Notes: generated from the letters alone by a model not told the origin. A DNA stretch of 64,000 nucleotides from a virus (IMGVR_UViG_3300027861_000001:1-64000); one strand, 5' to 3'; shown: positions 10,624 to 62,929, numbered from the stretch's first letter. A program made the numbers and translations.

Positions 10624-10851
10624 ATGCCAACTACTGGTAAATATTCACTGAAGGATTATAAATGTACTCGGTGTGGAAGGATAGAAAAACACGGCACAAA
10701 TCACTGGGGTGAAATCTATCCTAGATGTAGTGGCTGTTCTTTGAAACATCCCCTTGACCCTAATGTTGTGTGGGAATGCCTTGAACAGATGCCTGAAGGA
10801 TACACTAAACCTGAACAGTGGCAAAAGGTAAGGCTTGGTGACATTAGTTAG
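10624..10851 (+). CDS. Zinc-ribbon protein
   Basis: 75 residues with CTRCGR (14-19) and CSGCS (36-40), a classic four-cysteine ribbon. AGGAGG site before ATG. Last gene of the rightward operon; its 3' end overlaps the convergent minus-strand gene by 8 bases. Role unknown. Confidence 0.75.
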   Translation: MPTTGKYSLKDYKCTRCGRIEKHGTNHWGEIYPRCSGCSLKHPLDPNVVWECLEQMPEGYTKPEQWQKVRLGDIS

Positions 10852-11092
10852 TTGTATAACACCAAAACCTAGAAGGGCATTCATAACACTTATCTAACAC
10901 CGGTTGCAAATTCCTATGTTTATAACACCACTCAAAAGTATCAGTGTTATTACAAACATCACAGTGCCATTTACCATATCTACCTAGGTTATAAGCTTCA
11001 CGCCATAATACATTTTTGTATTCAGCATACGGCATCACATTACCACAAGTTAGACACACTACCTTCAAGTCTTCACTAAGACGATCAACCAT
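10844..11092 (-). CDS. Zinc-knuckle protein ending in a CX2CX5C tail
   Basis: 82 residues. Two internal pairs, CLTC and CDVC, then the family tail CYECPSRFWCYTTN at the very end. Last gene of the leftward array; converges on and overlaps the + strand gene at 10624. The tail is shared with about 55 proteins here. Confidence 0.8.
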   Translation of the reverse strand: MVDRLSEDLKVVCLTCGNVMPYAEYKNVLWREAYNLGRYGKWHCDVCNNTDTFEWCYKHRNLQPVLDKCYECPSRFWCYTTN

Positions 11093-11320
11093 TCAACTTG
11101 TCCAACACGCAAATCTTTGTCTACACTTCCCACACTTACCTCTTGCCGCTTGTTCGTGCCTAATTGTCATACACCTAACTATACTTCTACATTTACACTT
11201 GTCGCAGGCAGTAATTCCCGCACTTGTAGACGTGGATGATAGTTCCCATACGTCTACATAATGAAATCGTGACTCTCCACAGTCTGCACAAACATAACTC
11301 GTAGGGTATAAATTATCCAT
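11093..11320 (-). CDS. Zinc-knuckle protein with CX2CX5C-WT tail
   Basis: Start MDNLYPTS at 11320, one base after the upstream stop. Internal CADC and CDKCKC knuckles, tail CGKCRQRFACWTS. No separate SD; probably re-initiation from the upstream gene. Similar in layout to its neighbours at 10844 and 11322. Confidence 0.8.
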   Translation of the reverse strand: MDNLYPTSYVCADCGESRFHYVDVWELSSTSTSAGITACDKCKCRSIVRCMTIRHEQAARGKCGKCRQRFACWTS

Positions 11321-11321
11321 T

Positions 11322-11537
11322 TTAATTTGTCCAGCACCTGTACCTTTCGTTACACAAATCACATTTACCCCTTGCCATTTGTTCGTCTTTAATTAAGTGG
11401 CACCACTCTAAATTTTGGCTACCACAAGAAGGGCAAGAATAATCGTTTTTGTGATAAGTTAGATACTCTCTATATGTTAGATGTTCTCCGCACACAGAGC
11501 AAGCCACTGACCACAAATCTAGATAGTTTATTGCCAT
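11322..11537 (-). CDS. Zinc-knuckle protein with CX2CX5C-WT tail
   Basis: 71 residues: CSVC, CPSCGSQ, then tail CDLCNERYRCWTN. The text HLIKDEQMARGKC before the tail parallels IRHEQAARGKC in the next gene, so the two are tandem duplicates. No strong SD seen; a 148-base non-coding AT-rich gap lies upstream. Confidence 0.8.
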   Translation of the reverse strand: MAINYLDLWSVACSVCGEHLTYREYLTYHKNDYSCPSCGSQNLEWCHLIKDEQMARGKCDLCNERYRCWTN

Positions 11538-11685
11538 TTCTAAAAATATTTTGCCTTTTTAAGCAAATCTCCCCATAAAATACTACTGTTTTGAAGCTAA
11601 ACCACAACCAGAAATAGGAAAATAATAGGTATTAAATGGCTATTTTTTACCCTTTTTTTCCTCTTTTTTGACACTTTTTACCCAT

Positions 11686-11844
11686 TTAATTCCAATTAAA
11701 TTCATCAAAAAATACTTCATAAGCTACAGTACCACGTACCAGTTTAGGTGTTGATATGTCTATATATCCAATGCCATTCTCCTCGCAAAACTTTTTAACT
11801 ATGTCTGACTTGGTTGTTCTGGGTTTCCTCCATTCCATCTCCAT
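11686..11844 (-). CDS. Unknown 52-residue protein
   Basis: Start at 11844 (MEMEWRKPRTTKSDI), because AAGGAGAAAATT precedes it; it overlaps the upstream gene by 46 bases. Helix plus beta hairpin text, no cysteine tail. Not recognised. Confidence 0.6.
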   Translation of the reverse strand: MEMEWRKPRTTKSDIVKKFCEENGIGYIDISTPKLVRGTVAYEVFFDEFNWN

Positions 11845-12182
11845 AATTTTCTCCTTAATCTTTCTTTCCAAGAATATTTAATGGCTACTATATGTATGAA
11901 TCTCCATGTTCCAATTTTGAATATGTCCTCATTTTCTACGGCATATTCAATAGTATCTACCTTTCTCCAATACCATTCAAAGTGTTCAAAGTCTTCGGTT
12001 AGCCTAGTGTCCTTTATTTTGACAGCACCACTCTTTATTAACTGTTTAGCGTAGGCTCTAGAATAACCTATTGATTCCATAACATCTACCATATTCAAGG
12101 TTAAAAAGTCACTGTAATAAAAATCACAGTGATGATAGAACTGCATAAAACCGTATCCTTTGGGTGCTTTTTGTTGTGCCAT
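11799..12182 (-). CDS. Protein with S4-like RNA-binding segment
   Basis: 127 residues from ATG 12182, which overlaps the upstream stop as TAATG. Residues about 35-60 (IGYSRAYAKQLIKSGAVKI) read like an S4 RNA-binding loop-helix. Aromatic middle and strongly basic end (KERLRRKLWRW). Could bind structured RNA, by inference from the S4 resemblance. Confidence 0.6.
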   Translation of the reverse strand: MAQQKAPKGYGFMQFYHHCDFYYSDFLTLNMVDVMESIGYSRAYAKQLIKSGAVKIKDTRLTEDFEHFEWYWRKVDTIEYAVENEDIFKIGTWRFIHIVAIKYSWKERLRRKLWRWNGGNPEQPSQT

Positions 12183-12352
12183 TATTTTACATTTACTCCG
12201 TGAGTAGTACATATAAACTTATGTTGGCAGGAGTTACATTTAGTGTTACACAAAATAATAGAAGTGGTTTGTACATAAAGAATCATACGATCACAAGCAA
12301 CAGTGGGTTCTAATGCAGTAATGTTAGTTCCATCAAACTCACGTGGAGTCAT
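12182..12352 (-). CDS. 56-residue CX2CX5C protein, apparent 3' half of a split gene
   Basis: Starts ATG 12352 overlapping the TGA of the preceding short frame. It matches the C-terminal half of the 12699-13037 protein (SIILCNTKCNSCQHKFIC against SVILCEKVCKECHNRFIC) and ends CTTHGVNVK like CITHGVKIDE. Too short to be a full family member, so probably the second half of a gene broken by a frameshift. Confidence 0.65.
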   Translation of the reverse strand: MTPREFDGTNITALEPTVACDRMILYVQTTSIILCNTKCNSCQHKFICTTHGVNVK

Positions 12353-12459
12353 CACACATTATAATGCTTAAAAAGAAGCTCATCAATATCGCGTAGACTT
12401 GCCGTGGCTCTATCACTATATATCAATACAACAATATCGCCTTCTTTAAATTTAGACAC
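12352..12459 (-). CDS. 35-residue SH3-like N-terminal fragment (GTG start)
   Basis: GTG start overlaps the upstream stop. MSKFKEGDIVVLIYS matches the [KE]-x-GD-x-V-x-[IL] opening of the tailed SH3-like proteins (compare MSELKVGDTVVITT next door). Ends at TGA overlapping the ATG of the tail-bearing half. Reads as the first half of a split gene, or as coupled subunits. Confidence 0.55.
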   Translation of the reverse strand: MSKFKEGDIVVLIYSDRATASLRDIDELLFKHYNV

Positions 12460-12706
12460 CCATCTTTACTCCCATTGTCATACATCTAAACCTGTGCTGG
12501 CATTCTTTGCAGTTGGGTACACATTTAAGTAAAGTTGATTTTGTATACGTGTATGCTTCCCAATCTTCTTTACCAGCTCGAACTAACTTATAACTGAAAA
12601 TCTTAAAAACTTTAGCTTTAGTTCCTATATATTGTTCCGTATCTTTTGAATCATATACGTTAATAGTAGTTATGACAACAGTATCGCCAACTTTTAATTC
12701 ACTCAT
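12452..12706 (-). CDS. SH3-like protein with CX2CX5C motif
   Basis: 84 residues. N-terminal MSELKVGDTVVITTINVYD reads as a KOW/SH3-like barrel strand, followed by CKECQHRFRCMTMGVKMGV. The extension after the motif (GVK) is shared with the two flanking paralogues. Overlaps the upstream gene by 8 bases. Confidence 0.8.
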   Translation of the reverse strand: MSELKVGDTVVITTINVYDSKDTEQYIGTKAKVFKIFSYKLVRAGKEDWEAYTYTKSTLLKCVPNCKECQHRFRCMTMGVKMGV

Positions 12707-13037
12707 CTATTTTTACTCCATGTGTAATACAAATAAACCTGTTATGGCACTCCTTACAAACCTTTTCGCAAAGGATTACAGATGTTTTTAAAACAACAAA
12801 ACTTCGCAGAGCTATAGCAACATCATGTTTTGCATCTGTTCTGAAAATCTTATCAATCCAACCTCGACGATGATGGCCGTAGATGCTTTTATTCATTATA
12901 ATAAGATAGCTACCAAGGTCACGAATAACAACATAGTGTCCGGCTAAACTAATACTCTTGTATCTACCGATTTTTCTTTCTGTAAACATGTCGTAATGCA
13001 GCAAAATTACAGTGTCTTTCTCCTTTATCTCTGTCAT
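12699..13037 (-). CDS. SH3-like protein with CX2CX5C motif
   Basis: 112 residues, the longest of three adjacent paralogues: KEKDTVILLHYD opening, extra basic loop (GHHRRGWIDK), motif CKECHNRFICITHGVKIDE. The start overlaps the upstream stop by 4 bases. Serves as the intact reference for the split pair at 12182-12459. Confidence 0.8.
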   Translation of the reverse strand: MTEIKEKDTVILLHYDMFTERKIGRYKSISLAGHYVVIRDLGSYLIIMNKSIYGHHRRGWIDKIFRTDAKHDVAIALRSFVVLKTSVILCEKVCKECHNRFICITHGVKIDE

Positions 13038-13297
13038 TTCTTCCTGTTCTTCCTTTTAACAGCCTCTATCATCTCGTCTACTGTAGTTGCGACACTTATT
13101 TTAGCTTTCTTAACAGCATCTTCAAATGACATACCTTCTATCTCTTTGAAGTGGGTATAATAACACCCCCACGCTTCTTTCTGACCGTCAAACCCACCAG
13201 AGAATACAGACTCGTAGTGTGCCTTGCACAGAGGTAACCTACCTAAAGGCTGTAGGTTCTCAATTACTTCTTCTTCACAGTAAATACATTTTTTCAT
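13034..13297 (-). CDS. Zinc-knuckle protein, unknown function
   Basis: 87 residues from ATG 13297, overlapping the upstream stop by 4 bases. Starts MKKCIYCEEEVIENLQ with a CX2C and a later C-x2-H (LPLCKAHYESVF), as in small FYVE/treble-clef-like ribbons. Basic tail (VKRKNRKK). Lacks the common tail. Confidence 0.75.
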   Translation of the reverse strand: MKKCIYCEEEVIENLQPLGRLPLCKAHYESVFSGGFDGQKEAWGCYYTHFKEIEGMSFEDAVKKAKISVATTVDEMIEAVKRKNRKK

Positions 13298-13509
13298 GAC
13301 GTACAACACCTAAATCTTTCTTCGCAAGTTTCACAAGCTTTTAAATGCCCAAACATTAGTCTTTTTATAACAAAATCAAGACACTCACTACAATTTTCAC
13401 CTATGTTTTCACAGAAGTCATCCATATTATCTGCAAATGATGGACAAGGCATTGCTTGTGCTAGACTATCCCTTTCCATAATAGAATAAACAATTTCTAA
13501 ACATTTCAT
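13294..13509 (-). CDS. CX2CX5C-tailed small protein
   Basis: 71 residues, MKCLEIVYSIMERDS, with extra cysteines CEN and CSEC before the tail CETCEERFRCCTS, where Trp is replaced by Cys. Stop and start overlap both neighbours (TAATG upstream, ATGA downstream). Confidence 0.75.
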   Translation of the reverse strand: MKCLEIVYSIMERDSLAQAMPCPSFADNMDDFCENIGENCSECLDFVIKRLMFGHLKACETCEERFRCCTS

Positions 13510-13928
13510 TATTCAGTCCAACATTGAAAACGACGCTTACAGTTCTCACATAAATTTAAAGAATTATCAATTTCAAAATCATTCTTCCATCTAATAACAT
13601 AATATTCCTTTCCGGTTACGTTTGCTCTAAAGCTATTAATTACATAACTTTTATCGGTTCGGTGAGCAACAATTTTTCCATAAAGGCAACTAAAATAGGG
13701 ATGTTTGAGCTTAACAATAGTTTCATTTTCTACCGCAGCAGACAAAATTGATTCTTCAATAAATCTCTTAAGATCACTTGGGTGTATATTATACCCATCA
13801 CTCTCTATAGAAGAAATGAGTGGTGAATATCTTTTCTTGTTAGGTTTTGGTGATATTATATCAGCGTGCCATCCACCTATATAATACATCCACTCTTGCC
13901 CATTAATGTGTAACTTTCTATACTTCAT
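13509..13928 (-). CDS. CX2CX5C-WT tailed protein, unknown N-terminal domain
   Basis: 139 residues. Beta-rich N-terminus (LHINGQEWMYYIGGWHADI) and a helix (PSDLKRFIEESILS), then tail CENCKRRFQCWTE at the exact end. Starts one base after the upstream stop. Not otherwise recognised. Confidence 0.8.
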   Translation of the reverse strand: MKYRKLHINGQEWMYYIGGWHADIISPKPNKKRYSPLISSIESDGYNIHPSDLKRFIEESILSAAVENETIVKLKHPYFSCLYGKIVAHRTDKSYVINSFRANVTGKEYYVIRWKNDFEIDNSLNLCENCKRRFQCWTE

Positions 13929-14276
13929 TTAGCTTGTCCAACATTGAAATCTAAAGTAGCATACGGCACAAAGGTCTGGTGGGTCGTCTTTTTCTGGATA
14001 TATTTTCTCCAATTCTTTGTAGTATACTTCATAAGATGGATAGGAACCTTTAGCCATTGCATTACAATATACTCCACACTCTTTAAAAATGGGACATGTT
14101 TTACAAGTATTTAGGTTACTTGGTTTTGTTGTGTTTATTGTGTTTAACCAATAGTAACAATATATATTAACAGCACACTTATCAATTATAAATTTCAAAC
14201 AAGGGTTATTCTTTCCTTCAGATAATAGTTTTTGGTTTCGTCGCTCTATACGAGCCATTATCTCGTCTTGATTCAT
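13929..14276 (-). CDS. CX2CX5C-WT tailed protein, tandem paralogue of 14273-14635
   Basis: 115 residues from MNQDEIMARIERRNQ. Middle region has CKTCPIFKECGVYC, then tail CAVCYFRFQCWTS. Clearly a duplicate of the upstream gene (same YPEKDDPPDLCAVCYFRF). ATGA overlap with it. Confidence 0.85.
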   Translation of the reverse strand: MNQDEIMARIERRNQKLLSEGKNNPCLKFIIDKCAVNIYCYYWLNTINTTKPSNLNTCKTCPIFKECGVYCNAMAKGSYPSYEVYYKELEKIYPEKDDPPDLCAVCYFRFQCWTS

Positions 14277-14635
14277 GATGTTACACACTTAAATCTAAAG
14301 TAACAAACAGCGCACAAGTCCGTCGGATCATCTTTCTCTGGATAGTTTTCTTCTAAAACAGTATAAAACTTTAATGAACCTTCTTCATCAGTGACATGAT
14401 CTTCACAATACATATCACATGCATACTTAATGGGGCACCTAATACATCTAACCTCACCATTATTTACTGCAACAAAATACTCACAAAACACAAAATCATA
14501 CGTGTTTGCTACGTTAGTCATCATGTCTACACAATGGTTGTGGGTATTAGTAGCCATACATTTTTGGTTGTTTCGTTCTATACGAATCATAATTTCTTCT
14601 TGACTCATGGTGTTGGTGCCTATCAAATAATTCAT
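14273..14635 (-). CDS. CX2CX5C tailed protein, first gene of the leftward array
   Basis: 120 residues from ATG 14635, chosen for its GAGGGAG site. The paralogue would instead begin at MSQEEIMIRIERNNQ (14608). Contains CIRCPIKYACDMYC, itself a second CX2CX5C-like motif, and ends CAVCYFRFKCVTS with Val for Trp. Two tail-like motifs in one protein suggest internal duplication. Confidence 0.8.
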   Translation of the reverse strand: MNYLIGTNTMSQEEIMIRIERNNQKCMATNTHNHCVDMMTNVANTYDFVFCEYFVAVNNGEVRCIRCPIKYACDMYCEDHVTDEEGSLKFYTVLEENYPEKDDPTDLCAVCYFRFKCVTS

Positions 14636-17011: not shown

Positions 17012-17100
17012 TGGAAAATAAAGATTTACTACAAGATACGCTAGACAGAATGAGGTCTATGTTGGCTAAATTAGATGCATTATTGAAGGACAAAAAATGA
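17011..17100 (+). CDS. 29-residue helical peptide
   Basis: MENKDLLQDTLDRMRSMLAK continues as one amphipathic helix with Leu heptads. TAATG overlap upstream and ATGA overlap downstream leave little doubt it is read. Possibly an oligomerising or partner-binding peptide. Confidence 0.55.
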   Translation: MENKDLLQDTLDRMRSMLAKLDALLKDKK

Positions 17101-17462
17101 GTTGGTTGTCTTTTAAAGAGTTACAAATTGTTGGAAAAGTAAATGATAGGGTTATAATTACTGCAAGTAATTATTCCACAACCTGCCCTTGTCCTATTTG
17201 CAAATCACTTTCAGAACATGTTACCAAACTAATAATTGAGTCTTTTGAGATTGGTCTAAATGAGTTAATGGTGCATCTTAAGGTTAATAAGCTAGAAGGA
17301 AACCCTACTTTTGACGAAAATTACATTTCGTTATCGTTGGACGCCGCTCGTTGTTGCGAGGCAGATATAAAGTTTCTTATTTGTAATAACTATTGTGGTT
17401 GTTGTAAAGCAAGGTTTCTTTGTAAAACAACAAGTGACTTTTTTTGGACGGGGGAAGAATAA
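17097..17462 (+). CDS. Protein with CPCPIC knuckle and CX2CX5C motif
   Basis: 121 residues. CPCPIC near 25-30, then an alpha/beta middle, then CGCCKARFLCKTTSDFFW, the family motif set 12 residues before the end. First copy on the + strand of the long block. ATGA overlap with the upstream gene. Confidence 0.75.
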   Translation: MSWLSFKELQIVGKVNDRVIITASNYSTTCPCPICKSLSEHVTKLIIESFEIGLNELMVHLKVNKLEGNPTFDENYISLSLDAARCCEADIKFLICNNYCGCCKARFLCKTTSDFFWTGEE

Positions 17463-24973: not shown

Positions 24974-25249
24974 ATGAAACTAAGAACAGGGCAGTGTGTA
25001 AAAGTTACAGAAATTAAATATCTTACCTACAATGCACTTGCTGATACACGCACCAAAGAAAAGTTTGCGTGGGCTATAGGAAGATTAGGTAGGATTAAAA
25101 CCTCTCTACGTAACGATTGGTACGAAGTAAATGTAGAAAAAGAAGGATATCCATCGCCAATCAACATAAACTTAAGTTCAGAAGAATTTGAGGTTATGGA
25201 AGAAGATTGTAATAGTTGCAAAATAAGATTCAAATGTTGGACTGAATAA
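24974..25249 (+). CDS. SH3/KOW-like protein with CX2CX5C-WT tail
   Basis: 91 residues. TGQCVKVTEIKYLTYNALAD, then GRLGRIKTSLRNDWYEV, the usual barrel text, then CNSCKIRFKCWTE. Strong AGGAAGG site: first of a tailed pair. Its closest relatives in the window are at 25249, 33501, 33753 and 34794 (shared [IV]-x-[IVT]-x-[IQ]-[KL]-Y). Confidence 0.85.
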   Translation: MKLRTGQCVKVTEIKYLTYNALADTRTKEKFAWAIGRLGRIKTSLRNDWYEVNVEKEGYPSPININLSSEEFEVMEEDCNSCKIRFKCWTE

Positions 25250-25814: not shown

Positions 25815-26077
25815 TGAGCAGAGCCTTAGTTACTGCGGTGTATTATGAAGTAAAGTATGTTGTTGACAAACTGTTAACAAAAGATCAAACTGAAAGAGTG
25901 TTGAATCTGTATTGCGTATCAGAAGTTAAGACTGTAGCATTTAGTACATATATTACTTTTAAACTTGATACTTCTTTAACCACCAAGCCAGAATATTGGA
26001 AGGTTGGTGGTTTAACAGGTGTTCGAAATGACATAGAGTCTATAGTAAATGAAAAACAGGAGGATAATAATGGATAA
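25814..26077 (+). CDS. Unknown 87-residue protein
   Basis: Alpha/beta text (ALVTAVYYEVKYVVDKLLTK; VAFSTYITFKLDTSL). TAATG overlap with upstream gene. Not recognised. Confidence 0.65.
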   Translation: MSRALVTAVYYEVKYVVDKLLTKDQTERVLNLYCVSEVKTVAFSTYITFKLDTSLTTKPEYWKVGGLTGVRNDIESIVNEKQEDNNG

Positions 26078-44588: not shown

Positions 44589-44589
44589 C

Positions 44590-48954: not shown

Positions 48955-49248
48955 ATGCACGAAATATATACTCTTACTACTATCAGAAATAAAGCTTGGG
49001 ACACTGACACACGATGTGTTGGATGGTTCCCAAACTACGAAGATGCCGAATCAACAATAATTAGGTCTGGTGAACTATTGAATGAAGCTGGTTATTATGA
49101 ATATGCTGTCATAGAATGTATTAAGGCAGGTATCTACCAATACGACGATAACCCAGCTTGGTTTGCTTATAACTATAACCTTGAAACTTATGGAAAAATA
49201 GAAAGACCAGAAGACTTTGAACATGTTTGCGGGTTTGGAATAGGATGA
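48955..49248 (+). CDS. Conserved small phage protein, unknown function
   Basis: 97 residues from ATG 48955. YTLTTIRNKAWDTDTRCVGW, EDAESTIIRSGELLNEAGYY and YAVIECIKAGIYQYD look like a family I have seen often in phage genomes without assigned role. No metal motif. ATGA overlap with the next gene. Confidence 0.75.
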   Translation: MHEIYTLTTIRNKAWDTDTRCVGWFPNYEDAESTIIRSGELLNEAGYYEYAVIECIKAGIYQYDDNPAWFAYNYNLETYGKIERPEDFEHVCGFGIG

Positions 49249-49520
49249 AAAACCATAAAGTGCTGTGTACCTACACTAAGGATGGTAGTTATTACTACAT
49301 GCTCTGGGATGAGGACGAACGTCGATTAAAGAAGTATTCACACGATAGGTATCCTTTGGATATGGTTGATAGTCTATTCAACAACACTCTTTATTATACG
49401 TATAGCCAACTAGAGTATATGAATATTCGTTACACAGAATGGATAAACGGTGGAGAAGATTTAGAACCAGAAAATTGTGACGCTTGTAAGTATAGATTCA
49501 TATGTTGGACTGAGGAATGA
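49245..49520 (+). CDS. CX2CX5C-WT tailed protein
   Basis: 91 residues from ATG 49245. Beta-rich start (VLCTYTKDGSYYYMLWDEDE), then helix, then CDACKYRFICWTEE. Overlaps the next gene by 4 bases. Confidence 0.83.
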   Translation: MKNHKVLCTYTKDGSYYYMLWDEDERRLKKYSHDRYPLDMVDSLFNNTLYYTYSQLEYMNIRYTEWINGGEDLEPENCDACKYRFICWTEE

Positions 49521-49837
49521 GGGTATTAAACCAAACTAAATATTCAAGGTTCGTATGTTACTACGACGACTGTAATAGTTGTAAAATAAGATATAAGTGT
49601 TGGACTGGGGATATCACCGCATACGGCACCCTATATTACAAAATAAAAATAGAAGCATATGCTTTCTTTAGAGAAAAGTACGGTGCTGAAATAGACGACT
49701 ATGCTATTAGCGAAGCTTTTGAAGGTAAAAAAAGTAACCTTTTGAGCTTTTTTATTACAGGAGACCTTGATAGTACTGTTATTGCTTGTGAAGTGTTTCA
49801 CAGCAAAGAATGGAAAAGTTTTAGAGAAGGAGAATAA
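49517..49837 (+). CDS. Protein with N-terminal CX2CX5C-WT motif
   Basis: 106 residues. CNSCKIRYKCWTGDITAYG at about 19-37, near identical to a C-terminal tail (CNSCKIRFKCWTE at 25249) but here at the front. Remainder alpha/beta. Confidence 0.82.
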   Translation: MRVLNQTKYSRFVCYYDDCNSCKIRYKCWTGDITAYGTLYYKIKIEAYAFFREKYGAEIDDYAISEAFEGKKSNLLSFFITGDLDSTVIACEVFHSKEWKSFREGE

Positions 49838-50098: not shown

Positions 50099-50398
50099 AT
50101 GTATAGAAAGATTGATAGAATACCTCCCAAAACATTTCCAAAAGACGATTGTGATACATGCTTAATTCGTTTTAAATGTCATTCTTCTGCTGTAGATGAA
50201 GCTGGTTGTCGATTATCAGCAGAAGAGGCAGCAGATAGAATCTTCAAAACTATAGATGAAAATGGTGCTTACTGGAATAATATTGTCTCAAGTATTTTGA
50301 GAGTAGTAGCTGAAGATTGTGGGTATGATGTTGCTAATCATGTAATAGATTTATGTGGATTAGAAAGTTTGGGTTGGTGTCATGAAAGTGGATTGTAG
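50099..50398 (+). CDS. Protein with N-terminal CX2CX5C motif
   Basis: 99 residues. CDTCLIRFKCHSSAVDEAG at about 18-36, then a helical domain (LSAEEAADRIFKTIDENGAY). Upstream short stretch GCCTCACTCC-AGC is not coding. Overlaps the next gene by 17. Confidence 0.8.
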   Translation: MYRKIDRIPPKTFPKDDCDTCLIRFKCHSSAVDEAGCRLSAEEAADRIFKTIDENGAYWNNIVSSILRVVAEDCGYDVANHVIDLCGLESLGWCHESGL

Positions 50399-50672
50399 TG
50401 TAAAACTTAATGCTAATTATCCAGTTGAGTATACTGTAGATGGAGATGAATTGCTTCCTAGTGATACGAAAATTATTGAGCAAAGCGCAGGTAAAGTGTA
50501 CAAAATATTAAATATAAAAGAGGATAATCCAGACGAGCAGTTTGGAATAATCTACGAGGTTGGACAACTTAATGAAATTCCCGTAGTTTTCGCATACAGA
50601 CTAGAAATAGACCCAGCCTATATGAACGTATGCAACATTTGTGAAGAAAGGTTTAAATGTTTCTGTGAATAA
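50382..50672 (+). CDS. CX2CX5C-tailed protein, variant end
   Basis: 96 residues, beta-rich SH3-like text (KVYKILNIKEDNPDEQFG), tail CNICEERFKCFCE, where WT is replaced by FC. Last gene before the promoter at 50717. Confidence 0.82.
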   Translation: MKVDCSVKLNANYPVEYTVDGDELLPSDTKIIEQSAGKVYKILNIKEDNPDEQFGIIYEVGQLNEIPVVFAYRLEIDPAYMNVCNICEERFKCFCE

Positions 50673-50782: not shown

Positions 50783-51598
50783 ATGAGTATTACGAAGTTT
50801 ATAGAGATACACGATTACAGCACCCTTAACAAATATATGGCAGCTTTCTCACTAAAACATATGGGACTGCTAATTATCGTGTCAAGGGCGGGACTTGGAA
50901 AATCATACCTAGTAGAACAGAATCTCGAAGTAGAGGCACCGTTGTTACTAAACTCACACGTAACCCCACTTCGATTCTACCAACTGTTATATGAAAGAAC
51001 CCAAGAAGAAAAAGATTGTTTACTAATTATTGACGAAGCAGAAATGATGTTTCAAAACCCAAAATTAAAAACAATGCTGAAAATAACCTGCGATACACGC
51101 GATGAAAAGATAATTAAATACGATTCTACTTCTCCGTTGTTAGCAGGAGTTCCTAAAGAATTTTCCACAGAGGTAAAAACTGTTCTTTTACTTAACACAT
51201 TAAACCCATCAGACGAGCACATAAAAGCCATAATGTCAAGAGGACATTTAGTTTATTTTAATCCTCCAGATGTAGAAATATTAAATTACTTAAAAGGGTG
51301 GGGAGAAGATAAGGAAGTTATAAAGTTTATTGGTGACTTTGCTTCACACTCAAAATCTCTCAACCTAAGAACTTATGTTAAAGCCGTAGAATCTAAGAAA
51401 GCTGGGTTAAATTGGGAACAAGAGGTAATAAACGAACTTGATCTAGATAATCGTTTTCTTGTTATAAGAAGTTTAATAAAAAATTACAAGACAGACAAAG
51501 AGCGAATAATTGGTTGGACTAAGATTACCAGAGAATCACGTGCTAACTACTTTCGTTGGAAAAAACTATACGACAACAAAAACAAGAGAGGTAATTAA
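50783..51598 (+). CDS. P-loop ATPase (AAA-type)
   Basis: 271 residues. IIVSRAGLGKSYL (about 33-45) is Walker A, CLLIIDEAEMMF Walker B, VLLLNTLNP sensor 1, MSRGH an arginine finger candidate. C-terminal helical and basic part could contact DNA or RNA. First gene after a promoter; start not backed by a clear SD. Confidence 0.8.
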   Translation: MSITKFIEIHDYSTLNKYMAAFSLKHMGLLIIVSRAGLGKSYLVEQNLEVEAPLLLNSHVTPLRFYQLLYERTQEEKDCLLIIDEAEMMFQNPKLKTMLKITCDTRDEKIIKYDSTSPLLAGVPKEFSTEVKTVLLLNTLNPSDEHIKAIMSRGHLVYFNPPDVEILNYLKGWGEDKEVIKFIGDFASHSKSLNLRTYVKAVESKKAGLNWEQEVINELDLDNRFLVIRSLIKNYKTDKERIIGWTKITRESRANYFRWKKLYDNKNKRGN

Positions 51599-52446
51599 TG
51601 GGTTATAGAGGAAGAGGAAGAAAGATTAGGAACCACGCCAGAGAAGGTGTAGGAGATTCCTATTGGTATAAGAATGCGATTAACGATTTTATGAACGATA
51701 TAAAGCATGAAAAGGCCTATTCTACTAGCTACGGACTTAAAGTTCATTGGGAGTCTCCAACACGGTTGGTGTATAACGGAAATCCCATTCTTGTAAAAGA
51801 CGAAGCTGGGCAAATATTCATAACCAACAAAATTACACATCTTGGTGGAGTAAGTAATGATATTCCTAGAACATACTCCGACGCTATAGAAATGGTTTGG
51901 AGAGAATTAGTAACAAAAGGAATAGATTATAAGGTAGTAAATGGTTGGGCATCTCTGAACAATGAGGTTGTTGATCCACCACCAACTCACAAAACGGTTG
52001 GCGGATTGATCAGAAGTTTTGGTAAATATACAACTGACCAACTAAATGAAAAATATTGTTGGTGTGGAACACCTCCAGAATATATTATTGAAACACCATT
52101 AAATTTACTGTGGAGAGCTAAAAGACCTATTAGTTATCTAAAAAAGGTTGATGGTAATTTAACTATGGCAGCTAGGTATCACAACATATATAAGTGCGAA
52201 GACAAAGATACTTATATGTGTGATGTGTGTCCTGCTAAGTTTCAATGTCTTACACAAACTGAAACCTACAAAGGAGAAATCTTTTATATTAATGTCGATG
52301 CTTTTGTAGACTTAGAAATATTTAAGCTATACCCAGCAATGAAAAATAGCTTGCCATGTAGTGTACTGCAAAGTTTTTCTAAGTTGGGAGACTTATCCTT
52401 GACCGTTGCTGAAAGAGAAGCTACAGCAGAGGGAACTGATGAGTAA
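51598..52446 (+). CDS. 282-residue protein with internal CX2CX5C motif
   Basis: Paralogue of 28780-29571: VNGWASLNNEVV, THKTVGGLIRSFGKY, then CDVCPAKFQCLTQTETYKGE and FYINVD. Basic start (YRGRGRKIRNHAREG). TAATG overlap with the ATPase. Motif about 65 residues before the end. Function unknown. Confidence 0.8.
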   Translation: MGYRGRGRKIRNHAREGVGDSYWYKNAINDFMNDIKHEKAYSTSYGLKVHWESPTRLVYNGNPILVKDEAGQIFITNKITHLGGVSNDIPRTYSDAIEMVWRELVTKGIDYKVVNGWASLNNEVVDPPPTHKTVGGLIRSFGKYTTDQLNEKYCWCGTPPEYIIETPLNLLWRAKRPISYLKKVDGNLTMAARYHNIYKCEDKDTYMCDVCPAKFQCLTQTETYKGEIFYINVDAFVDLEIFKLYPAMKNSLPCSVLQSFSKLGDLSLTVAEREATAEGTDE

Positions 52447-53053
52447 AGCAACAGCCGCACTTTGTGATAAGTGTCCTCTAAATACAGAAGATGACACTGC
52501 TCTAAAGAATATTTTTGTTCCTAGTGAAATACACGACAAGTCTAGCATTATTCTTTTAGTTGAAGCCCCTGGATACTACGAGGCTAAGGCTGGAATTCCA
52601 TTGGTTGGACAGGCAGGTAATGACTTAATGGATGTAATTTATAACTTAGAGCTTAATCGTTCAGACTTCAACTTAGTAAACAGTGTAAGTTGTAGACCAA
52701 CAGCCATGAAGAACGAAAGAGTTATAAATAGAACACCGACGGACAAAGAAATCTATTGTTGCAATCAAAGATTGCTAGGTGAAATAAATAATATAGCTCC
52801 AGTGTCAATTGTTGCGATGGGTAAAGTACCTTACATTGCTTTAGGAGGAAGTAAGGAAGCTAAAGTAAAAGACATAGCAGGAACTACTTTTGATTTACAA
52901 GGTAATTATAAAGTGTTTGTTACTTACCATCCGGCAGCTATAGGTTATAACAAAAAAACACAGCTTGGAGAAATGATAAAGAAAAATATCTATGACCAAA
53001 TCTTAGCAGCAACTCTATTAAAACCAAAAGTAAAACAGTTTAGATTGCTATGA
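52439..53053 (+). CDS. Uracil-DNA glycosylase, family 4-like
   Basis: 204 residues from ATG 52439. Removes uracil from DNA. CDKC near residue 9-12, SCRP and a Cys 19-20 residues later fit the four [4Fe-4S] ligands of family 4. LVEAPGYYEAKAGIPLVGQA is the active-site motif A and TYHPAAI the C-terminal HP motif. Overlaps the upstream gene by 8 bases. Suggests repair of phage DNA or a uracil-free genome. Confidence 0.87.
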   Translation: MSKATAALCDKCPLNTEDDTALKNIFVPSEIHDKSSIILLVEAPGYYEAKAGIPLVGQAGNDLMDVIYNLELNRSDFNLVNSVSCRPTAMKNERVINRTPTDKEIYCCNQRLLGEINNIAPVSIVAMGKVPYIALGGSKEAKVKDIAGTTFDLQGNYKVFVTYHPAAIGYNKKTQLGEMIKKNIYDQILAATLLKPKVKQFRLL

Positions 53054-53277
53054 AAAAAGAGTTTAACGTTGGTGACAAGGTTTGTATGTTCCCTAACGAA
53101 ATGTCAGCTGCTGGTAAAAAGGTAGGAGTAGGTGTAGTAATAGACACTAAGTCATACCGAGCCGATTACCCATACGAAGTAAGAGGTACTGGTTTTGTTT
53201 GGTCATCAGAAGAATTAAACCTTTGTTTAGGAAATTGTGATACTTGCAAAGCTAGATTTGTTTGTTGGACGAGCTAA
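53050..53277 (+). CDS. SH3-like protein with CX2CX5C-WT tail
   Basis: 75 residues. KKEFNVGDKVCMFPNEMSA, SEELNLCLGN, then CDTCKARFVCWTS. ATGA overlap with the glycosylase gene. Confidence 0.86.
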   Translation: MKKEFNVGDKVCMFPNEMSAAGKKVGVGVVIDTKSYRADYPYEVRGTGFVWSSEELNLCLGNCDTCKARFVCWTS

Positions 53278-53370
53278 ATGAAAAAGAAAAAATCAGTAAA
53301 AGATATAAAAAAGCAAAAGAAAACAAGAACCAAACGAAGAAGAAAGAATCGGTTAGGTGGAAAACGATGA
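53278..53370 (+). CDS. 30-residue extremely basic peptide
   Basis: MKKKKSVKDIKKQKKTRTKR followed by RRKNRLGGKR: 18 of 30 residues are Lys or Arg. ATG follows the preceding TAA directly and its TGA overlaps the next ATG, exactly as for real genes here. Likely binds nucleic acid. Confidence 0.6.
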   Translation: MKKKKSVKDIKKQKKTRTKRRRKNRLGGKR

Positions 53371-53681
53371 CAGACGAAACCATTGCTGAGAAAACTAGAA
53401 TACTTACGTGTCAACTGGAATACAAAAATACTAAGTATTCTAAACCTTGTTTAACATGTAATGATAGGTTCAAATGCCATACAATGGTTGCGAAAGAGTT
53501 TGTAATGACAGAAATGTACTCAGGGTGGAAAGATCATTATATTGTAGCAGAAACTAAAGAAGAAGCACAGAACTGGTTCGATAAATTAGGATTTGAGTTG
53601 TTTGAAGAATATGGTGAATATAATCGTTTGGGTGACGAGTACGGTGAAAATACAGAGTGGAAAGAAATAGATTATAGATAA
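53367..53681 (+). CDS. Protein with internal CX2CX5C motif
   Basis: 104 residues from ATG 53367. CLTCNDRFKCHTM at about 28-40, then a helical/acidic domain (AETKEEAQNWFDKLGFELF). Confidence 0.78.
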   Translation: MTDETIAEKTRILTCQLEYKNTKYSKPCLTCNDRFKCHTMVAKEFVMTEMYSGWKDHYIVAETKEEAQNWFDKLGFELFEEYGEYNRLGDEYGENTEWKEIDYR

Positions 53682-53941: not shown

Positions 53942-54352
53942 ATGGTAGTTCAAACAGAGTGGATACGTACGCCTAAAGAGTTGAGAGAGGATGGGTACAA
54001 CGTATTGTTCTATAACATATCTGGTTTCATCAAAGTTTGTCTTATTAGGAAAGAAGGACAGAACTTGGCTCGCGGTATAGCTATCTGTTCTTATTTTGAC
54101 AAATATGATAAACTTGAGGGTGCTAAACAGGCATTCAATAGAGCAGTAGCTGCGTTGGATACTGGTATTGGTAGTGAACCAATTAATACTTTCGGGAGAA
54201 AAGGTAAACTCAAAAAGCGACTTTCTTTAGCAAATGACTTTTTCTTTTGGAAGTCTGAACCTAATCCATACCTAAAAACTGCACACGAACAAGAGCTGGT
54301 TGAGAGACGGTTATGGCGAATAGAAAAGCGGTTGCAAGCAAAAAAGAAATAA
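53942..54352 (+). CDS. Unknown 136-residue protein
   Basis: Alpha/beta N-terminus (GYNVLFYNISGFIKVCLI), strongly basic C-terminal helices (RRLWRIEKRLQAKKK). AAAGGAG site. Overlaps the next gene by 40 bases. Not recognised. Confidence 0.72.
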   Translation: MVVQTEWIRTPKELREDGYNVLFYNISGFIKVCLIRKEGQNLARGIAICSYFDKYDKLEGAKQAFNRAVAALDTGIGSEPINTFGRKGKLKKRLSLANDFFFWKSEPNPYLKTAHEQELVERRLWRIEKRLQAKKK

Positions 54353-54573
54353 GAAAGCCCACAGTTGGACAAACTCTTATAGTAATTGAAGGTAAGGCGG
54401 GTATACCTACCGGAGAACTGGCTCATTTTCGTGATTCTTACAAGCACAACGGTGTAACTCTCTGGGTTGTAGACGGTATAAAAAACGGAACTTCTTTCTT
54501 TTCTTGGAGATTTGTCATTTGTGAAAAACCTTGTGAAACTTGTAAAGAAAGATTTAGGTGTTGGACAGCATGA
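54313..54573 (+). CDS. SH3-like protein with CX2CX5C-WT tail
   Basis: 86 residues. Basic start (NRKAVASKKEIRK), GQTLIVIEGKAGIPTGE, FFSWRFVICEKP, then CETCKERFRCWTA. Related to 57136 (LFSWRLAKC) and 39996. Confidence 0.86.
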   Translation: MANRKAVASKKEIRKPTVGQTLIVIEGKAGIPTGELAHFRDSYKHNGVTLWVVDGIKNGTSFFSWRFVICEKPCETCKERFRCWTA

Positions 54574-55048: not shown

Positions 55049-55360
55049 ATGAGAAAGAGAACTAGAAAAACTAGAGTAACTCTTACAGAAGCGGAAAGAA
55101 AACAAAGAGATTTTCATAACACCGCATGGTTAGATGATCACTGGGGTATGCAAGGAACAGTGATGTTTTACCTTGGTAAGTATTGGGGGGTCAAAATAAA
55201 GGAAGATGGTGTATGTGTGCCTACCTTCTGGACAGAGGAAGCATGGGAGAAAAGAAAAACAGACATAGCTGAAGGTAAAAAGAAAAAGGAAAAAGAATCC
55301 ACCCCCAAAAGAAGAAAAAAAGTAAAAACTACTAAGAAGGCAAAGAAGAATGCAAGTTAG
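55049..55360 (+). CDS. Very basic protein, possible nucleic-acid binder
   Basis: 103 residues. MRKRTRKTRVTLTEAERKQR, an aromatic middle (HWGMQGTVMFYLGKYWGVKI), then a Lys/Arg tail from about 75 onward. No clear SD. DNA or RNA binding is an inference from charge. Confidence 0.65.
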   Translation: MRKRTRKTRVTLTEAERKQRDFHNTAWLDDHWGMQGTVMFYLGKYWGVKIKEDGVCVPTFWTEEAWEKRKTDIAEGKKKKEKESTPKRRKKVKTTKKAKKNAS

Positions 55361-55853
55361 TATAAGAGCATATGGGTGGTTTTGTATTGCTTGTGACTGC
55401 CCAAAACCTGTAGAGAAAGTAAGAGTAGTCAAGGCACCAAATAAAGAATTTATAGGTGTAATTTGTAATGATTGTTCTACAGAACTACACGATTGTTTCT
55501 TATATAAAAAGGGTGTAGAGTGCGATAGCTGTAAAGACAGATTCCATTGCTTCACAATGTCAGGAGCTACTGTACCTAAACCTTTGGAAAATGTTAAAAG
55601 CCATGAAATACAAAGTATTGCTCCTATAAAAACCGACAATAAAAGCATGGGGATTAAATCGTACACAGGACATTATCACTATAAATTAGACCAATCTTAT
55701 TGTGCTTATCCATATAGAGACGACTGTAATCACAGTTGGATGAGAGCCAATTACAGTGGAACCTCTTATACACGGTGTGAATATATGGAATATGCTATTA
55801 AAGAAGAAAAGTGGTATTGTTTGTATGGAGAAACAGTAAGGGGCAACAGATAG
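55350..55853 (+). CDS. Multi-cysteine protein with internal CX2CX5C motif
   Basis: 167 residues. CIACDCP near 12-18, CNDC, then CDSCKDRFHCFTMSGAT at about 62-78 and a Cys/His/Tyr-rich C-terminal half. Overlaps upstream by 11. Confidence 0.75.
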   Translation: MQVSIRAYGWFCIACDCPKPVEKVRVVKAPNKEFIGVICNDCSTELHDCFLYKKGVECDSCKDRFHCFTMSGATVPKPLENVKSHEIQSIAPIKTDNKSMGIKSYTGHYHYKLDQSYCAYPYRDDCNHSWMRANYSGTSYTRCEYMEYAIKEEKWYCLYGETVRGNR

Positions 55854-55855
55854 GT

Positions 55856-55984
55856 GTGGTTATCAGAAGGTTAATCTGTTGTTTTAGGTGTAACAATATA
55901 GTCCCAAAAGCATCTTATTGTATACACTGTGGGGTTATGTTAATAAATAGACAAGAGAGGTTAGAAAATGGAAAACATGAGTAA
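55856..55984 (+). CDS. 42-residue zinc-ribbon peptide (GTG start)
   Basis: GTG three bases after the previous stop. CCFRC and CIHCG make a compact four-cysteine ribbon (double-zinc-ribbon style). Ends inside the start of the next gene. Confidence 0.55.
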   Translation: MVIRRLICCFRCNNIVPKASYCIHCGVMLINRQERLENGKHE

Positions 55985-56402
55985 TAAATGTTACGAGTGT
56001 CAATATAGGAGAGACCTGCCAGGATCAGCACACTCAAAATGTGTTCATCCTAATCTTCCTAAAGTAGTGGCAGACAACCCTATGATGGAAATGTTTTCTA
56101 TTTTAGGTGGAGTAGGTAGAACATTGGTTACTGGTGGTAAAGAGATAGATTTAAAAACAGCCTTACCAGCAGTTTCTGAGTTTCTAATGGATTCAGACGA
56201 GACCTCAATAAAAGTAAAGGGACACGAACATGGAATTAAAAATGGTTGGTTCATGTTCCCATATAACTTTGACCCAACGTGGTTATTAGAGTGTGATGGT
56301 TTTGAGGGGTGTGAATCTTGTGAACATAGATTTATTTGTGCAACCGAGTCTCCTAAAAAATGTTATAAACAGAAAGGTATTACACCTAATGATGCACATT
56401 AA
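55968..56402 (+). CDS. Conserved Cys-rich protein with CX2CX5C motif
   Basis: 144 residues. N-terminal KCYECQYRRDLPGSAHSKC is a widespread phage/bacterial motif of unknown role. Near the end CESCEHRFICATESPKKC. The middle is mixed. GAGAGG site 7 bases before ATG. Confidence 0.78.
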   Translation: MENMSNKCYECQYRRDLPGSAHSKCVHPNLPKVVADNPMMEMFSILGGVGRTLVTGGKEIDLKTALPAVSEFLMDSDETSIKVKGHEHGIKNGWFMFPYNFDPTWLLECDGFEGCESCEHRFICATESPKKCYKQKGITPNDAH

Positions 56403-56622
56403 AGATATTGGTTATGAGGATGGATGGAAAGAAAGACGTATATCACGTGAATCAGAAGAAGAAAGATTCATGAGGAAATGTAAAGAAATTTCCACCAACA
56501 CAGAAAAGTGTGATAAATGTGAGTTTCGTTATAAGTGTTATACGCTAGAACATAAAGAAACAACTTTATTTGGTGAGGATTTAGGTGCTAAATATCAAAA
56601 AATACGTCACGTAAAGAAATAA
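56389..56622 (+). CDS. Protein with internal CX2CX5C motif
   Basis: 77 residues from ATG 56389 or 56392. Charged helix (WKERRISRESEEERFMRK), motif CDKCEFRYKCYTL at about 43-55, short tail. Motif nearly identical to that at 57692 (CDKCEFRYKCWTS). Confidence 0.75.
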   Translation: MMHIKDIGYEDGWKERRISRESEEERFMRKCKEISTNTEKCDKCEFRYKCYTLEHKETTLFGEDLGAKYQKIRHVKK

Positions 56623-57135: not shown

Positions 57136-57453
57136 ATGATTGATCGTACCGGTTATGGTTTAGAGGACTTAAACACAGAAAGGTTTGAGAAAAGTAAAAA
57201 CCAACTTGATTTTTACTACCAAAAACTATCGTCTGGTGACAACTTTGTAGTTGTGGACAACGAAGGTGTAGACGTACCTAGTGGTACAGCTGGTAGTATA
57301 CTATATTTTAAGGGGAACGAGAATTGGGTTTGTGAGGTTAGATTGAATGAAGCTTCTGGACGCAAAGAAAGAGGTTTATTTTCTTGGCGCCTAGCTAAGT
57401 GTACAAAAGATTGTAATGCTTGTAATGCAAAGTTCTGGTGCTGGACAAACTGA
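57136..57453 (+). CDS. SH3-like protein with CX2CX5C-WT tail
   Basis: 105 residues from ATG 57136. Helical start, then GDNFVVVDNEGVDVPSGTAG and LFSWRLAKC, tail CNACNAKFWCWTN (Lys for Arg). Coupled to the next gene by TGATG. Confidence 0.85.
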   Translation: MIDRTGYGLEDLNTERFEKSKNQLDFYYQKLSSGDNFVVVDNEGVDVPSGTAGSILYFKGNENWVCEVRLNEASGRKERGLFSWRLAKCTKDCNACNAKFWCWTN

Positions 57454-57704
57454 TGAAATTAGAGAAGGCTGAAAAAGTATTCATAACAGGAAAAACAGAA
57501 GATTGGTGTGATTGTGAGTCTTGCCAAGCACTTTTTGAGGAAGAAGTAATAAATAGACAAGCTATTGTAGCACACAGTAGAAAGTCTTTCATACTTAAGT
57601 TGTTGTCTGGTCGTAGTGTACATATTAATTCCGTAACATATATACAGTGCAAAACACAACCCTGCGACAAGTGTGAATTTAGGTATAAATGCTGGACTAG
57701 TTAA
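57453..57704 (+). CDS. SH3-like protein with CX2CX5C-WT tail, last gene of the block
   Basis: 83 residues from ATG 57453. KVFITGKTEDWCDCESC is shared with 34545 (KVFITGMDDWCDCVDC); tail CDKCEFRYKCWTS. A terminator follows 20 bases later. Confidence 0.87.
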   Translation: MKLEKAEKVFITGKTEDWCDCESCQALFEEEVINRQAIVAHSRKSFILKLLSGRSVHINSVTYIQCKTQPCDKCEFRYKCWTS

Positions 57705-58988: not shown

Positions 58989-58998
58989 TGCTTTCCTA

Positions 58999-59560: not shown

Positions 59561-59562
59561 AT

Positions 59563-60169: not shown

Positions 60170-60189
60170 CAGATACCTCCTGTTATGAA

Positions 60190-60219: not shown

Positions 60220-60222
60220 CGT

Positions 60223-61708: not shown

Positions 61709-61711
61709 TAC

Positions 61712-61978
61712 TTATCTCCATTCTACTTTTACACCAAAAACCTTAGACATTAACCAGTATCTAACCCTGTTTCTTTTACTCCTTTCTATGTGATAACAAA
61801 ACTTTAAAGTACCAAAATTATCACCAAAAGAAACTTCAATATTGTGATTTTCTAAATTAACCGACAGTGATCCCCAGTGATCATCTTGCTCACAAATATT
61901 TTCTACTTGTGTGAAGCACCTAAACCTATCTATACACGTATCACACTTGTTCTTTTTTTTTCTCCAAGGCTTTCTCAT
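61712..61978 (-). CDS. Protein with N-terminal CX2CX5C motif
   Basis: 88 residues. Basic start (RKPWRKKKNK), motif CDTCIDRFRCFTQ at about 12-24, then a beta-rich domain (SVNLENHNIEVSFGDNFG). Another front-end copy of the module. Overlaps upstream by 4. Confidence 0.8.
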   Translation of the reverse strand: MRKPWRKKKNKCDTCIDRFRCFTQVENICEQDDHWGSLSVNLENHNIEVSFGDNFGTLKFCYHIERSKRNRVRYWLMSKVFGVKVEWR

Positions 61979-62262
61979 AATCCCGCTTCTTTAACTTTGC
62001 GAACTGCTTCCTCTTCTGTTAGTTTTCCTTTCTCAACATCTCGAATCAAAGGATAGAGAACCCAGTGAATATCGACACACACAGCTAATAAGTCGTTTAT
62101 CTCGTCATACAACTCCTTAATGTTAGTAGACTCAGGTCGATCTGGATGCCAATTAAAGTAACCAAACCGTCTAGCTTTGCCAAGAGCTTTGAACACTTCC
62201 CCTACTTCTTCCAATAACTTGTCCTGAAGTCCACCTATATTCTTATAATCTTTATGACTCAT
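61975..62262 (-). CDS. MazG-like nucleotide pyrophosphohydrolase
   Basis: 95 residues, all helical. KLLEEVGEVFKALGKARRFG supplies the ExxE helix and ELYDEINDLLAVCVDI the ExxD helix of the MazG/dUTPase all-alpha NTP pyrophosphatase fold. Single-domain size fits phage MazG. May clear dNTP or (p)ppGpp; in Z-base phages a MazG relative makes dGMP from dGTP. Confidence 0.78.
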   Translation of the reverse strand: MSHKDYKNIGGLQDKLLEEVGEVFKALGKARRFGYFNWHPDRPESTNIKELYDEINDLLAVCVDIHWVLYPLIRDVEKGKLTEEEAVRKVKEAGL

Positions 62263-62282
62263 AATCTACTCCATTTCTTTTG

Positions 62283-62364
62283 CGGAAGGTGAGAGATTCG
62301 AACTCCCAAGGCTTTTATACCTGCTGTTTTCAAGACAGTTTACTTCACCAATAGCAGACCTTCC
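62283..62364 (-). tRNA. tRNA-Ser(UGA)
   Basis: Minus strand: acceptor GGAAGGT/ACCTTCC, anticodon loop CTTGAAA (anticodon TGA) on stem CTGT/ACAG, long variable arm with AGG/CCT pairing, T-loop TTCGAAT, discriminator G followed by CAA. CCA not encoded. Confidence 0.9.
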
Positions 62365-62367
62365 ATC

Positions 62368-62652
62368 TTAACTCGTCCAACAGACAAATCTTGCAATACA
62401 ATCTTCACAATCAGGACACGGTAGTTTATCTATCTTTTCATGAAAATGCCTTAGCACTTCATACTTTATACCATTCTTCACTTCTTCATGAGTTTCGTAA
62501 CAATTGTTACAATCCCAGCATTCGTGTATCCAAGAGTCATAATCAACTATATCCCAAGAATTTAATTCGTTGTGTCTGTCTTTAGAAGTATAAACCCAAC
62601 CCCAACACACCCAAACTGAACCACAATAGTCGCATGTTCTTAAATTATTCAT
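62368..62652 (-). CDS. Multi-knuckle protein with CX2CX5C-WT tail
   Basis: 94 residues from ATG 62652. CDYCG near the front, CWDCNNC in the middle, CPDCEDCIARFVCWTS at the end. Trp-rich. Its start overlaps the upstream stop by 8 bases; the stop lies 4 bases from the tRNA-Ser 5' end. Confidence 0.82.
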   Translation of the reverse strand: MNNLRTCDYCGSVWVCWGWVYTSKDRHNELNSWDIVDYDSWIHECWDCNNCYETHEEVKNGIKYEVLRHFHEKIDKLPCPDCEDCIARFVCWTS

Positions 62653-62929
62653 AATATAACATATCCAAGCTGTCAGTCCAGCACGGAAACTTATATTTAC
62701 ATTCGTCACAATTATAAGGTACTATTTCCCACGGATACATCCACACACTAAAGAAGAATGATGGATTGCTGGTTGTAATACTTACCAAATACAATTCACC
62801 TCTTGGTGCTTTAGTTTCAGCTGTTACGATTCTTACATCAAACTCTCTACTTGTAAATGTACCCTGCCAAGTCTCGTCCAAATGAACTCCATTTGGTAAA
62901 CAGACCTTGTCGTCAACTTCAAACTTCAT
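62645..62929 (-). CDS. SH3-like protein with CX2CX5C-WT motif
   Basis: 94 residues. KFEVDDKVCLPNGVHLDE barrel start, SVWMYPWEIVPYN, motif CDECKYKFPCWTDSLDM followed by LYYE: tail lengthened by about eight residues. Flanked by tRNA genes. Confidence 0.83.
   Translation of the reverse strand: MKFEVDDKVCLPNGVHLDETWQGTFTSREFDVRIVTAETKAPRGELYLVSITTSNPSFFFSVWMYPWEIVPYNCDECKYKFPCWTDSLDMLYYE

Follow-up and report, generated by a model that had tools for sequence, protein, structure and literature searches.

What does a short cysteine motif do when a single phage carries it in dozens of its genes? The question is raised by a 64,000-base stretch of viral DNA (the window; bases 1-64000 of the 149,053-base phage record IMGVR_UViG_3300027861_000001, here G000), in which a first-pass annotation had noticed a recurrent three-cysteine module, C-x2-C-x2-[RK]-[FY]-x-C followed by an aromatic residue and Thr. 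Our combined findings suggest that this is probably a portable metal-binding mini-module, most likely for a [4Fe-4S] cluster and less likely for zinc, in which three cysteines are joined by a floating fourth, and which has been shuffled as a staple through one little-known phage clade.

A six-frame scan of the window with the pattern C..C..[RK][FY].C gave 57 matches, one of which, at 37861, is out of frame and contains an internal stop. The same scan with the reversed motif, or with [DE][FY] or [RK][VI] variants, gave no match at all. In open frames of at least 50 amino acids there were 56 forward and 0 reversed matches, and 56 of the 61 occurrences of any C-x2-C-x5-C belonged to the module; the control spacings C-x5-C-x2-C, C-x2-C-x4-C and C-x2-C-x6-C occurred 3, 3 and 4 times, respectively. 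The proposed family of about 55 genes on both strands thus holds, with 55 carriers lying between 10844 and 62929, one of them (14273-14635) with two copies. These coordinates are correct for the window but are not the limit of the family, as 12 further copies lie beyond it, for a total of 67 in the 149-kb phage.

Since the cysteine, Arg/Lys and Phe/Tyr positions were themselves search criteria, their conservation is not independent evidence. We therefore note the positions outside these criteria in a set of 297 non-redundant carriers with 298 module copies, drawn from G000 and its relatives. The consensus is C-[DEN]-x-C-x2-[RK]-[FY]-x-C-[YWF]-[TS]-x-[RK], with Tyr, Trp or Phe at +10 in 82%, Thr or Ser at +11 in 97%, Asp, Glu or Asn at +1 in 73% and Arg or Lys at +13 in 51% of copies. 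At the DNA level, both TGT and TGC are used at all three cysteines, and the basic position is spelled with five Arg and two Lys codons in the window; across the clade all six Arg codons are found, and Thr is likewise spelled with several codons. This variation in synonymous spelling indicates constraint on the protein, as had been proposed from the window.

A four-cysteine metal site needs four cysteines in one chain, and a further cysteine was found in 293 of the 297 carriers. Only 4 carriers lacked one, compared to 22 expected (the minimum in 1000 permutations was 12), and 96 had exactly one, compared to 47 expected (permutation maximum 65). When cysteines at -2 to -14 from the module were classed as near and all other further cysteines as remote, 131 carriers had both kinds, 78 near only, 83 remote only and 5 neither (p = 2.4e-9; p = 4e-6 without G000, in Fisher tests that take carriers as independent, though some are related). 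Near and remote cysteines replace each other, and the fourth cysteine is at no fixed place. It had first been described as common but not constant at 3-6 residues upstream; a fourth cysteine does exist, but nearly every carrier has one, anywhere in the chain and not just at that position. The exchange is visible within families. In the SH3-like protein at 33753-34019, Arg replaces the core cysteine of its four paralogues and a cysteine has been gained at -4, and in a family resembling the L7/L12 C-terminal domain (PF00542, 3e-10) two phages have the cysteine at -4 and three have it at -72, -73 and -76. Other families keep it in place across phages, as YLGCP at -48 to -55 or as RC[LM] at -8 or -10. 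A shared ligand is the only reason known to us for such a pattern, which has the form that a four-cysteine metal site would be expected to leave when one of its ligands floats.

The module sits on mostly unrelated backgrounds. With the module masked, the 297 carriers fell into ~183 families, 131 of them singletons, and 246 of the 280 homologues detected in this way carry the module, several of the remainder being artefacts of frame choice. Most carriers had no family match. Those recognized include a family-4 uracil-DNA glycosylase, L7/L12-like, ParB-like and zinc-ribbon proteins, SH3-like barrels (weak Foldseek matches to the core only) and a SWIM-like protein whose match is weak and below the cut-off; with this last reservation, the combination with SH3-like, zinc-ribbon, SWIM and unrecognized domains reported at first is confirmed. 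In the glycosylase carrier the module is C-terminal and separate from the enzyme's own cluster cysteines. The orthologues in G000 and in the related phage G033 are without it, and the module was therefore gained or lost as a unit. The G000 enzyme (52406-53053, family-4-like) is directly followed by a carrier at 53050-53277, and that of G036 (L347 near 6108) has an apparent intein-like insertion. In G007, another such insertion (L207:6192-7625) separates the SWIM-type cysteines in the protein orthologous to 41312-41662, and the G013 orthologue is free of it. MKIRxGFVSNSSSSSF is another short module that recurs; it stands at the N-terminus of several proteins that differ in the rest of their sequence (43148-43711, 44572-44847 and 44857-45183; L206:12130-12543; L361:14301-14735) and occurs together with the three-cysteine module in two families; the string SNSSSSSF was not found in the literature searched.

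How far does the module extend beyond this phage? A terminase search found 17 contigs at 67-76% identity, and the phages of this clade share terminase (~72%), class II ribonucleotide reductase (~70%) and DNA polymerase (~52%). A profile of the motif (A1), in line with the check suggested at first and built here from the 67 copies of G000, picked up 33 copies in the 148-kb G007, 21 in G013 and 4 in G016. Scans with exact degenerate DNA patterns, in which records very near the window were possibly excluded, added 36 copies in G032, 50 in G033, 44 in G034, 31 in G036 and 17 in G035, a near-duplicate of G007. In 844 kb of clade DNA there were 286 forward and 0 reversed matches, compared to 5 forward and 4 reversed in ~960 kb of other viral DNA. 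Outside the clade, the DNA-pattern scans matched only chance or shadow frames and Cas4-domain exonucleases. Two matches in ~900 cellular genomes from three phyla both appeared to be shadow frames and were judged spurious. The module profile matched nothing relevant among PDB sequences, the SH3-like carrier family had no relatives found outside G000, and no match to defence families was found. The module is thus restricted to one phage clade in the collections searched, and, in agreement with the first impression, we found no earlier description of it.

The exonuclease matches provide the closest likeness to a known system. In the Cas4-domain exonucleases of phages (phrog_1990, E to 1e-35), the arm CNFCEFRFSCWTS has the same local sequence as the module (hhalign probability 97%, E 8e-11); profile A1 picks up this type of arm at 2.9e-7, and, of the frames inspected beyond the clade, only arms of this kind were genuine matches. 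Iron-staple nucleases of the Cas4/AddB/Dna2 type (phrog_1990, phrog_1706) share the C-x2-C-x5-C spacing, the aromatic and basic residues between the cysteines and the C-W that follows. Their fourth cysteine is remote and N-terminal, whereas that of the carriers is nearly always present but at no fixed place; in the phage Cas4-domain exonucleases the extra cysteine is also at a varying place (GRPxCQLW or ERC[YF]). The clade's own PD-(D/E)XK nuclease has C14 with C226/C229/C235, staple cysteines only, in 4 of the 5 distinct phages read. In contrast to these enzymes, the carriers are without a nuclease domain, and the module is free-standing, in ~183 families, at any position and with a floating fourth cysteine; none of the 92 carriers covered by family matching matched a PDDEXK or Cas4 family. 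The module looks like the Fe-S (iron-sulfur)-binding arm of a DNA nuclease turned portable building block, an arm that holds [4Fe-4S] or, in some cases, Zn.

Other likenesses are less close. The SPASM domain of radical SAM enzymes, to which the spacing had been linked, has C-x2-C-x5-C with Arg/Tyr-like residues ahead of the third cysteine, but continues with x3-C and has seven cysteines in all. No Pfam match to SPASM was found among the 92 carriers, and the x3-C end is missing, position +13 being Arg or Lys with Cys in ~1% (first 130 carriers), so that a specific SPASM link is not upheld. WhiB (Wbl) proteins are small, bind [4Fe-4S] and show the C...C-x2-C-x5-C spacing; however, they have one fixed architecture with a G[VI]WGG turn that the carriers lack, [YWF]-T rather than GVWGG follows the third cysteine, and none of the 92 carriers matched the family. 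The N-terminal C-x2-C-x5-C motif of RseC/RnfF forms an oxygen-sensitive Fe-S cluster (PMC11729352), but in a membrane protein for which an R-[FY]-x-C-[WFY]-T shell is not reported, the comparison being by published spacing alone.

The earlier hint of Zn or Fe-S binding is supported, metal binding being the likely chemistry. Spacing of the C-x2-C-x5-C type binds Fe-S in solved or studied proteins (PMC4176176, PMC7430649, PMC6282962, PMC11729352), including SSO0001 (C32 with C188/C191/C197, [4Fe-4S]; PMC4176176), Pcal_0546 (C64 with C200/C203/C209, [2Fe-2S]; PMC4176176) and WhiB1 (C9 with C37/C40/C46, [4Fe-4S]; PMC6282962), and for this reason we favour Fe-S over zinc by analogy, zinc being the exception (PMC3466216). 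In such a site, the three module cysteines would be ligands of one metal center completed by the fourth cysteine from elsewhere in the same chain, and R-[FY]-x-C-[WFY]-[TS] would form a packing shell around the cluster. The cluster would then hold together the module and a remote segment of a small protein, acting as a staple and possibly also as a sensor of oxygen, nitric oxide (NO) or iron. Fusion and gene duplication probably spread the module through the accessory genes of the clade.

Several observations weigh against this interpretation. Five carriers have neither a near nor a remote cysteine, most carriers without an extra cysteine being short frames of uncertain start (20-60 amino acids), and the fourth ligand is ambiguous in cysteine-rich carriers such as zinc ribbons. 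A similarity of 14 residues cannot tell common descent from convergence. The AlphaFold check suggested at the outset gave a good core for an SH3-like carrier (predicted local distance difference test, pLDDT, 84) with a disordered tail, and a poor model for an 11-member carrier family; in both models the putative metal site had a pLDDT <50 and the fourth cysteine was not seen converging on the other three. Finally, Zn occupies the same four-cysteine layout in DUF3799 (3L0A; PMC3466216). This last case, together with the many carriers with zinc-ribbon-like or SWIM-like cysteines, would fit a minimal zinc finger serving fold stability alone, a possible but rather unlikely alternative, given that C-x2-C-x5-C with a remote cysteine is typical of Fe-S families (Cas4, Dna2-like, WhiB, RseC) and that an iron-staple nuclease, two radical SAM proteins and a B12-dependent ribonucleotide reductase are encoded by the phage, fitting low oxygen.

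The recurrence of 21-67 copies per phage on mostly unrelated backgrounds, including the glycosylase, L7/L12-like and ParB-like proteins, also raises the idea of a docking tag, whose metal-bound R-F-x-C-[WFY]-T face would be read by one shared host or phage partner, as a WhiB-like cluster domain binds a sigma factor. The outer residues of this face do appear more constant than stability alone would require. Yet a shared partner is not needed to account for the data, the glycosylase orthologues of G000 and G033 do without the module, and its position is free, being N-terminal, internal or C-terminal. In the window, 34 of the 55 carriers stop no more than 3 residues after the motif, nearly always as CWT plus one residue, close to the ~35 first counted. 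C-terminal copies make up 38 of 67 in G000 but only 26 of 230 in its relatives, most of whose copies are internal or close to the N-terminus. The constant C-terminal position of a targeting tag is therefore not seen, C-terminal placement is peculiar to G000, and the description of a phage-wide tail is not supported. We consider docking doubtful.

The uniform ending in G000 may owe something to DNA. Trp follows the third cysteine in 33 of 38 terminal but 6 of 29 internal copies (p = 5e-8), and 24 of the 38 terminal copies end 2-4 nucleotides before an ATG opening a frame of at least 40 amino acids; 23 of these 24 have Trp, 23 end exactly in CWT plus one residue, and TGGAC lies ~9 nucleotides upstream of the next start. 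Terminal copies could thus have been shaped by TGG-AC (Trp-Thr) as a weak Shine-Dalgarno sequence serving the overlapping gene that follows, with the arrays being recent duplications. As a whole this reading is improbable: it covers the uniform CWT-x ending alone, a role of this kind is absent from internal copies, Trp is frequent at uncoupled ends too (10 of 14, p = 0.05), and the three cysteines are spelled both TGT and TGC. A ribosome-binding-site explanation was dropped for the whole module and kept for the CWT-x ending of G000, where a second use as a weak ribosome-binding site may account for the uniformity. Least probable by far is that the motif is the target of a phage radical SAM/SPASM enzyme with many substrates, as in ribosomally synthesized and post-translationally modified peptides. 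A radical SAM gene with a weak SPASM-like C-terminus (45570-46589) lies in the same region and has conserved counterparts in G007, G032 and G034, but this model is weakened because a search of G033, a phage with ~50 modules, detected no orthologue; moreover, it gives the floating cysteine no role, and the carriers resemble folded proteins, not leader-core peptides. The other radical SAM protein (20975-21937) was found in G000 alone.

If the module does bind Fe-S, each genome of this clade would encode dozens of candidate Fe-S proteins, and we know of no other phage with comparably many. The floating ligand would then be a natural experiment in which a metal site is rebuilt with one ligand from anywhere in the chain. 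A more speculative extension, to which we give limited credence, is that the cluster is a common handle on dozens of early or accessory proteins. Through one and the same cluster face, all carriers could be assembled, docked to a single hub or switched by iron, O2 or NO, a cofactor counterpart of short linear motifs such as clamp-binding peptides. The stapling, sensing and docking models are directly testable, and the module offers a route to function for ~180 families of uncharacterized phage proteins.

Table 1 Carriers of the three-cysteine module in the window. Start codons are estimates; positions of the fourth cysteine are relative to the module.
Coordinates	Strand	Module	Module position	Other features
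10844..11092	-	CYECPSRFWCYTTN	C-terminal	zinc-ribbon-like family
11093..11320	-	CGKCRQRFACWTS	C-terminal	
11322..11537	-	CDLCNERYRCWTN	C-terminal	
12182..12352	-	CNSCQHKFICTT	near-C-terminal	
12452..12706	-	CKECQHRFRCMT	near-C-terminal	
12699..13037	-	CKECHNRFICIT	near-C-terminal	
13294..13509	-	CETCEERFRCCTS	C-terminal	
13509..13928	-	CENCKRRFQCWTE	C-terminal	
13929..14276	-	CAVCYFRFQCWTS	C-terminal	
14273..14635	-	CIRCPIKYACD; CAVCYFRFKCVTS	second copy C-terminal	two copies
17097..17462	+	CGCCKARFLCKT		
24974..25249	+	CNSCKIRFKCWTE	C-terminal	SH3-like domain; remote 4th Cys = C8
25249..25539	+	CNNCSIRYKCWTEK		SH3-like paralogue; remote 4th Cys
26049..26366	+	CDECKLRFDCY	internal	
27841..28110	+	CNNCKIRFQCWTE	C-terminal	
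28095..28370	+	CNECVDRFKCWTE	C-terminal	zinc-ribbon-like
28370..28591	+	CDKCELRFKCWTE		4th Cys at -3
28780..29571	+	CVRCPRRFRCIT	internal	family common to G033, G036
29745..29993	+	CDDCKLKFQCAT	internal	
29990..30229	+	CSFCLKRFKCWTN		array member
30230..30487	+	CNICEVRFKCWTS		array member; single remote 4th Cys (-44)
30488..30742	+	CNKCKERFKCWTS		array member; single remote 4th Cys (-42)
30743..31051	+	CETCNFRFRCWTS		4th Cys at -4
31052..31333	+	CDECKLRYLCWTT		
31333..31542	+	CDQCEERFRCWTN		4th Cys at -3
31543..31911	+	CKGCENIFKCLT		probable degenerate; Arg/Lys lost
33229..33501	+	CEKCELRFVCWTG		zinc-ribbon-like cysteines
33498..33752	+	CEECEKRFKCWTT		SH3-like paralogue
33753..34019	+	CNECKARFVCWTG		SH3-like paralogue; 4th Cys swapped to -4 (core has GQRV)
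34019..34291	+	CEKCKYRFKCWTE		single remote 4th Cys (-45)
34288..34545	+	CEECEKRFKCWTT		
34530..34793	+	CDECKHRFICWTS		
34794..35084	+	CEECPARFQCWTS		SH3-like paralogue; remote 4th Cys
35085..35333	+	CEECEERFKCFT	internal	
39269..39565	+	CGNCNIRFRCWT	N-terminal	
39568..39858	+	CNSCSVRYLCYT	N-terminal	
39996..40223	+	CDTCKQRYRCWTT		4th Cys at -5
40953..41315	+	CDDCNYRFFCFT	internal	
41312..41662	+	CDTCSLRFPCYT		after weak SWIM match; orthologues in five other phages
41659..41982	+	CNNCPARFKCWTG	C-terminal	GTG start
49245..49520	+	CDACKYRFICWTEE		single remote 4th Cys (-70)
49517..49837	+	CNSCKIRYKCWT	N-terminal	
50099..50398	+	CDTCLIRFKCHS	N-terminal	
50382..50672	+	CNICEERFKCFCE	C-terminal	
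51598..52446	+	CDVCPAKFQCLT	internal	
53050..53277	+	CDTCKARFVCWTS		4th Cys at -4
53367..53681	+	CLTCNDRFKCHT	N-terminal	family in G033 and G034
54313..54573	+	CETCKERFRCWTA		4th Cys at -4
55350..55853	+	CDSCKDRFHCFT	internal	
55968..56402	+	CESCEHRFICAT		
56296..56622	+	CDKCEFRYKCYT		
57136..57453	+	CNACNAKFWCWTN		
57453..57704	+	CDKCEFRYKCWTS		
61712..61978	-	CDTCIDRFRCFT	N-terminal	4th Cys downstream (+17)
62368..62652	-	CEDCIARFVCWTS	C-terminal	
62645..62929	-	CDECKYKFPCWT		single remote 4th Cys (-64)

An adenylosuccinate-synthetase homologue (19418-20560) and a DNA polymerase (L003:1406-3340) with sub-threshold similarity to DpoZ point to a possible modified-purine genome. The phage also has heavy RNA repair and NAD equipment, with nicotinate phosphoribosyltransferase-like, RtcB-like ligase and CCA-adding-enzyme-like proteins (22740-23951, 26518-27717 and 31892-33229) as well as 23 tRNA genes (L002).

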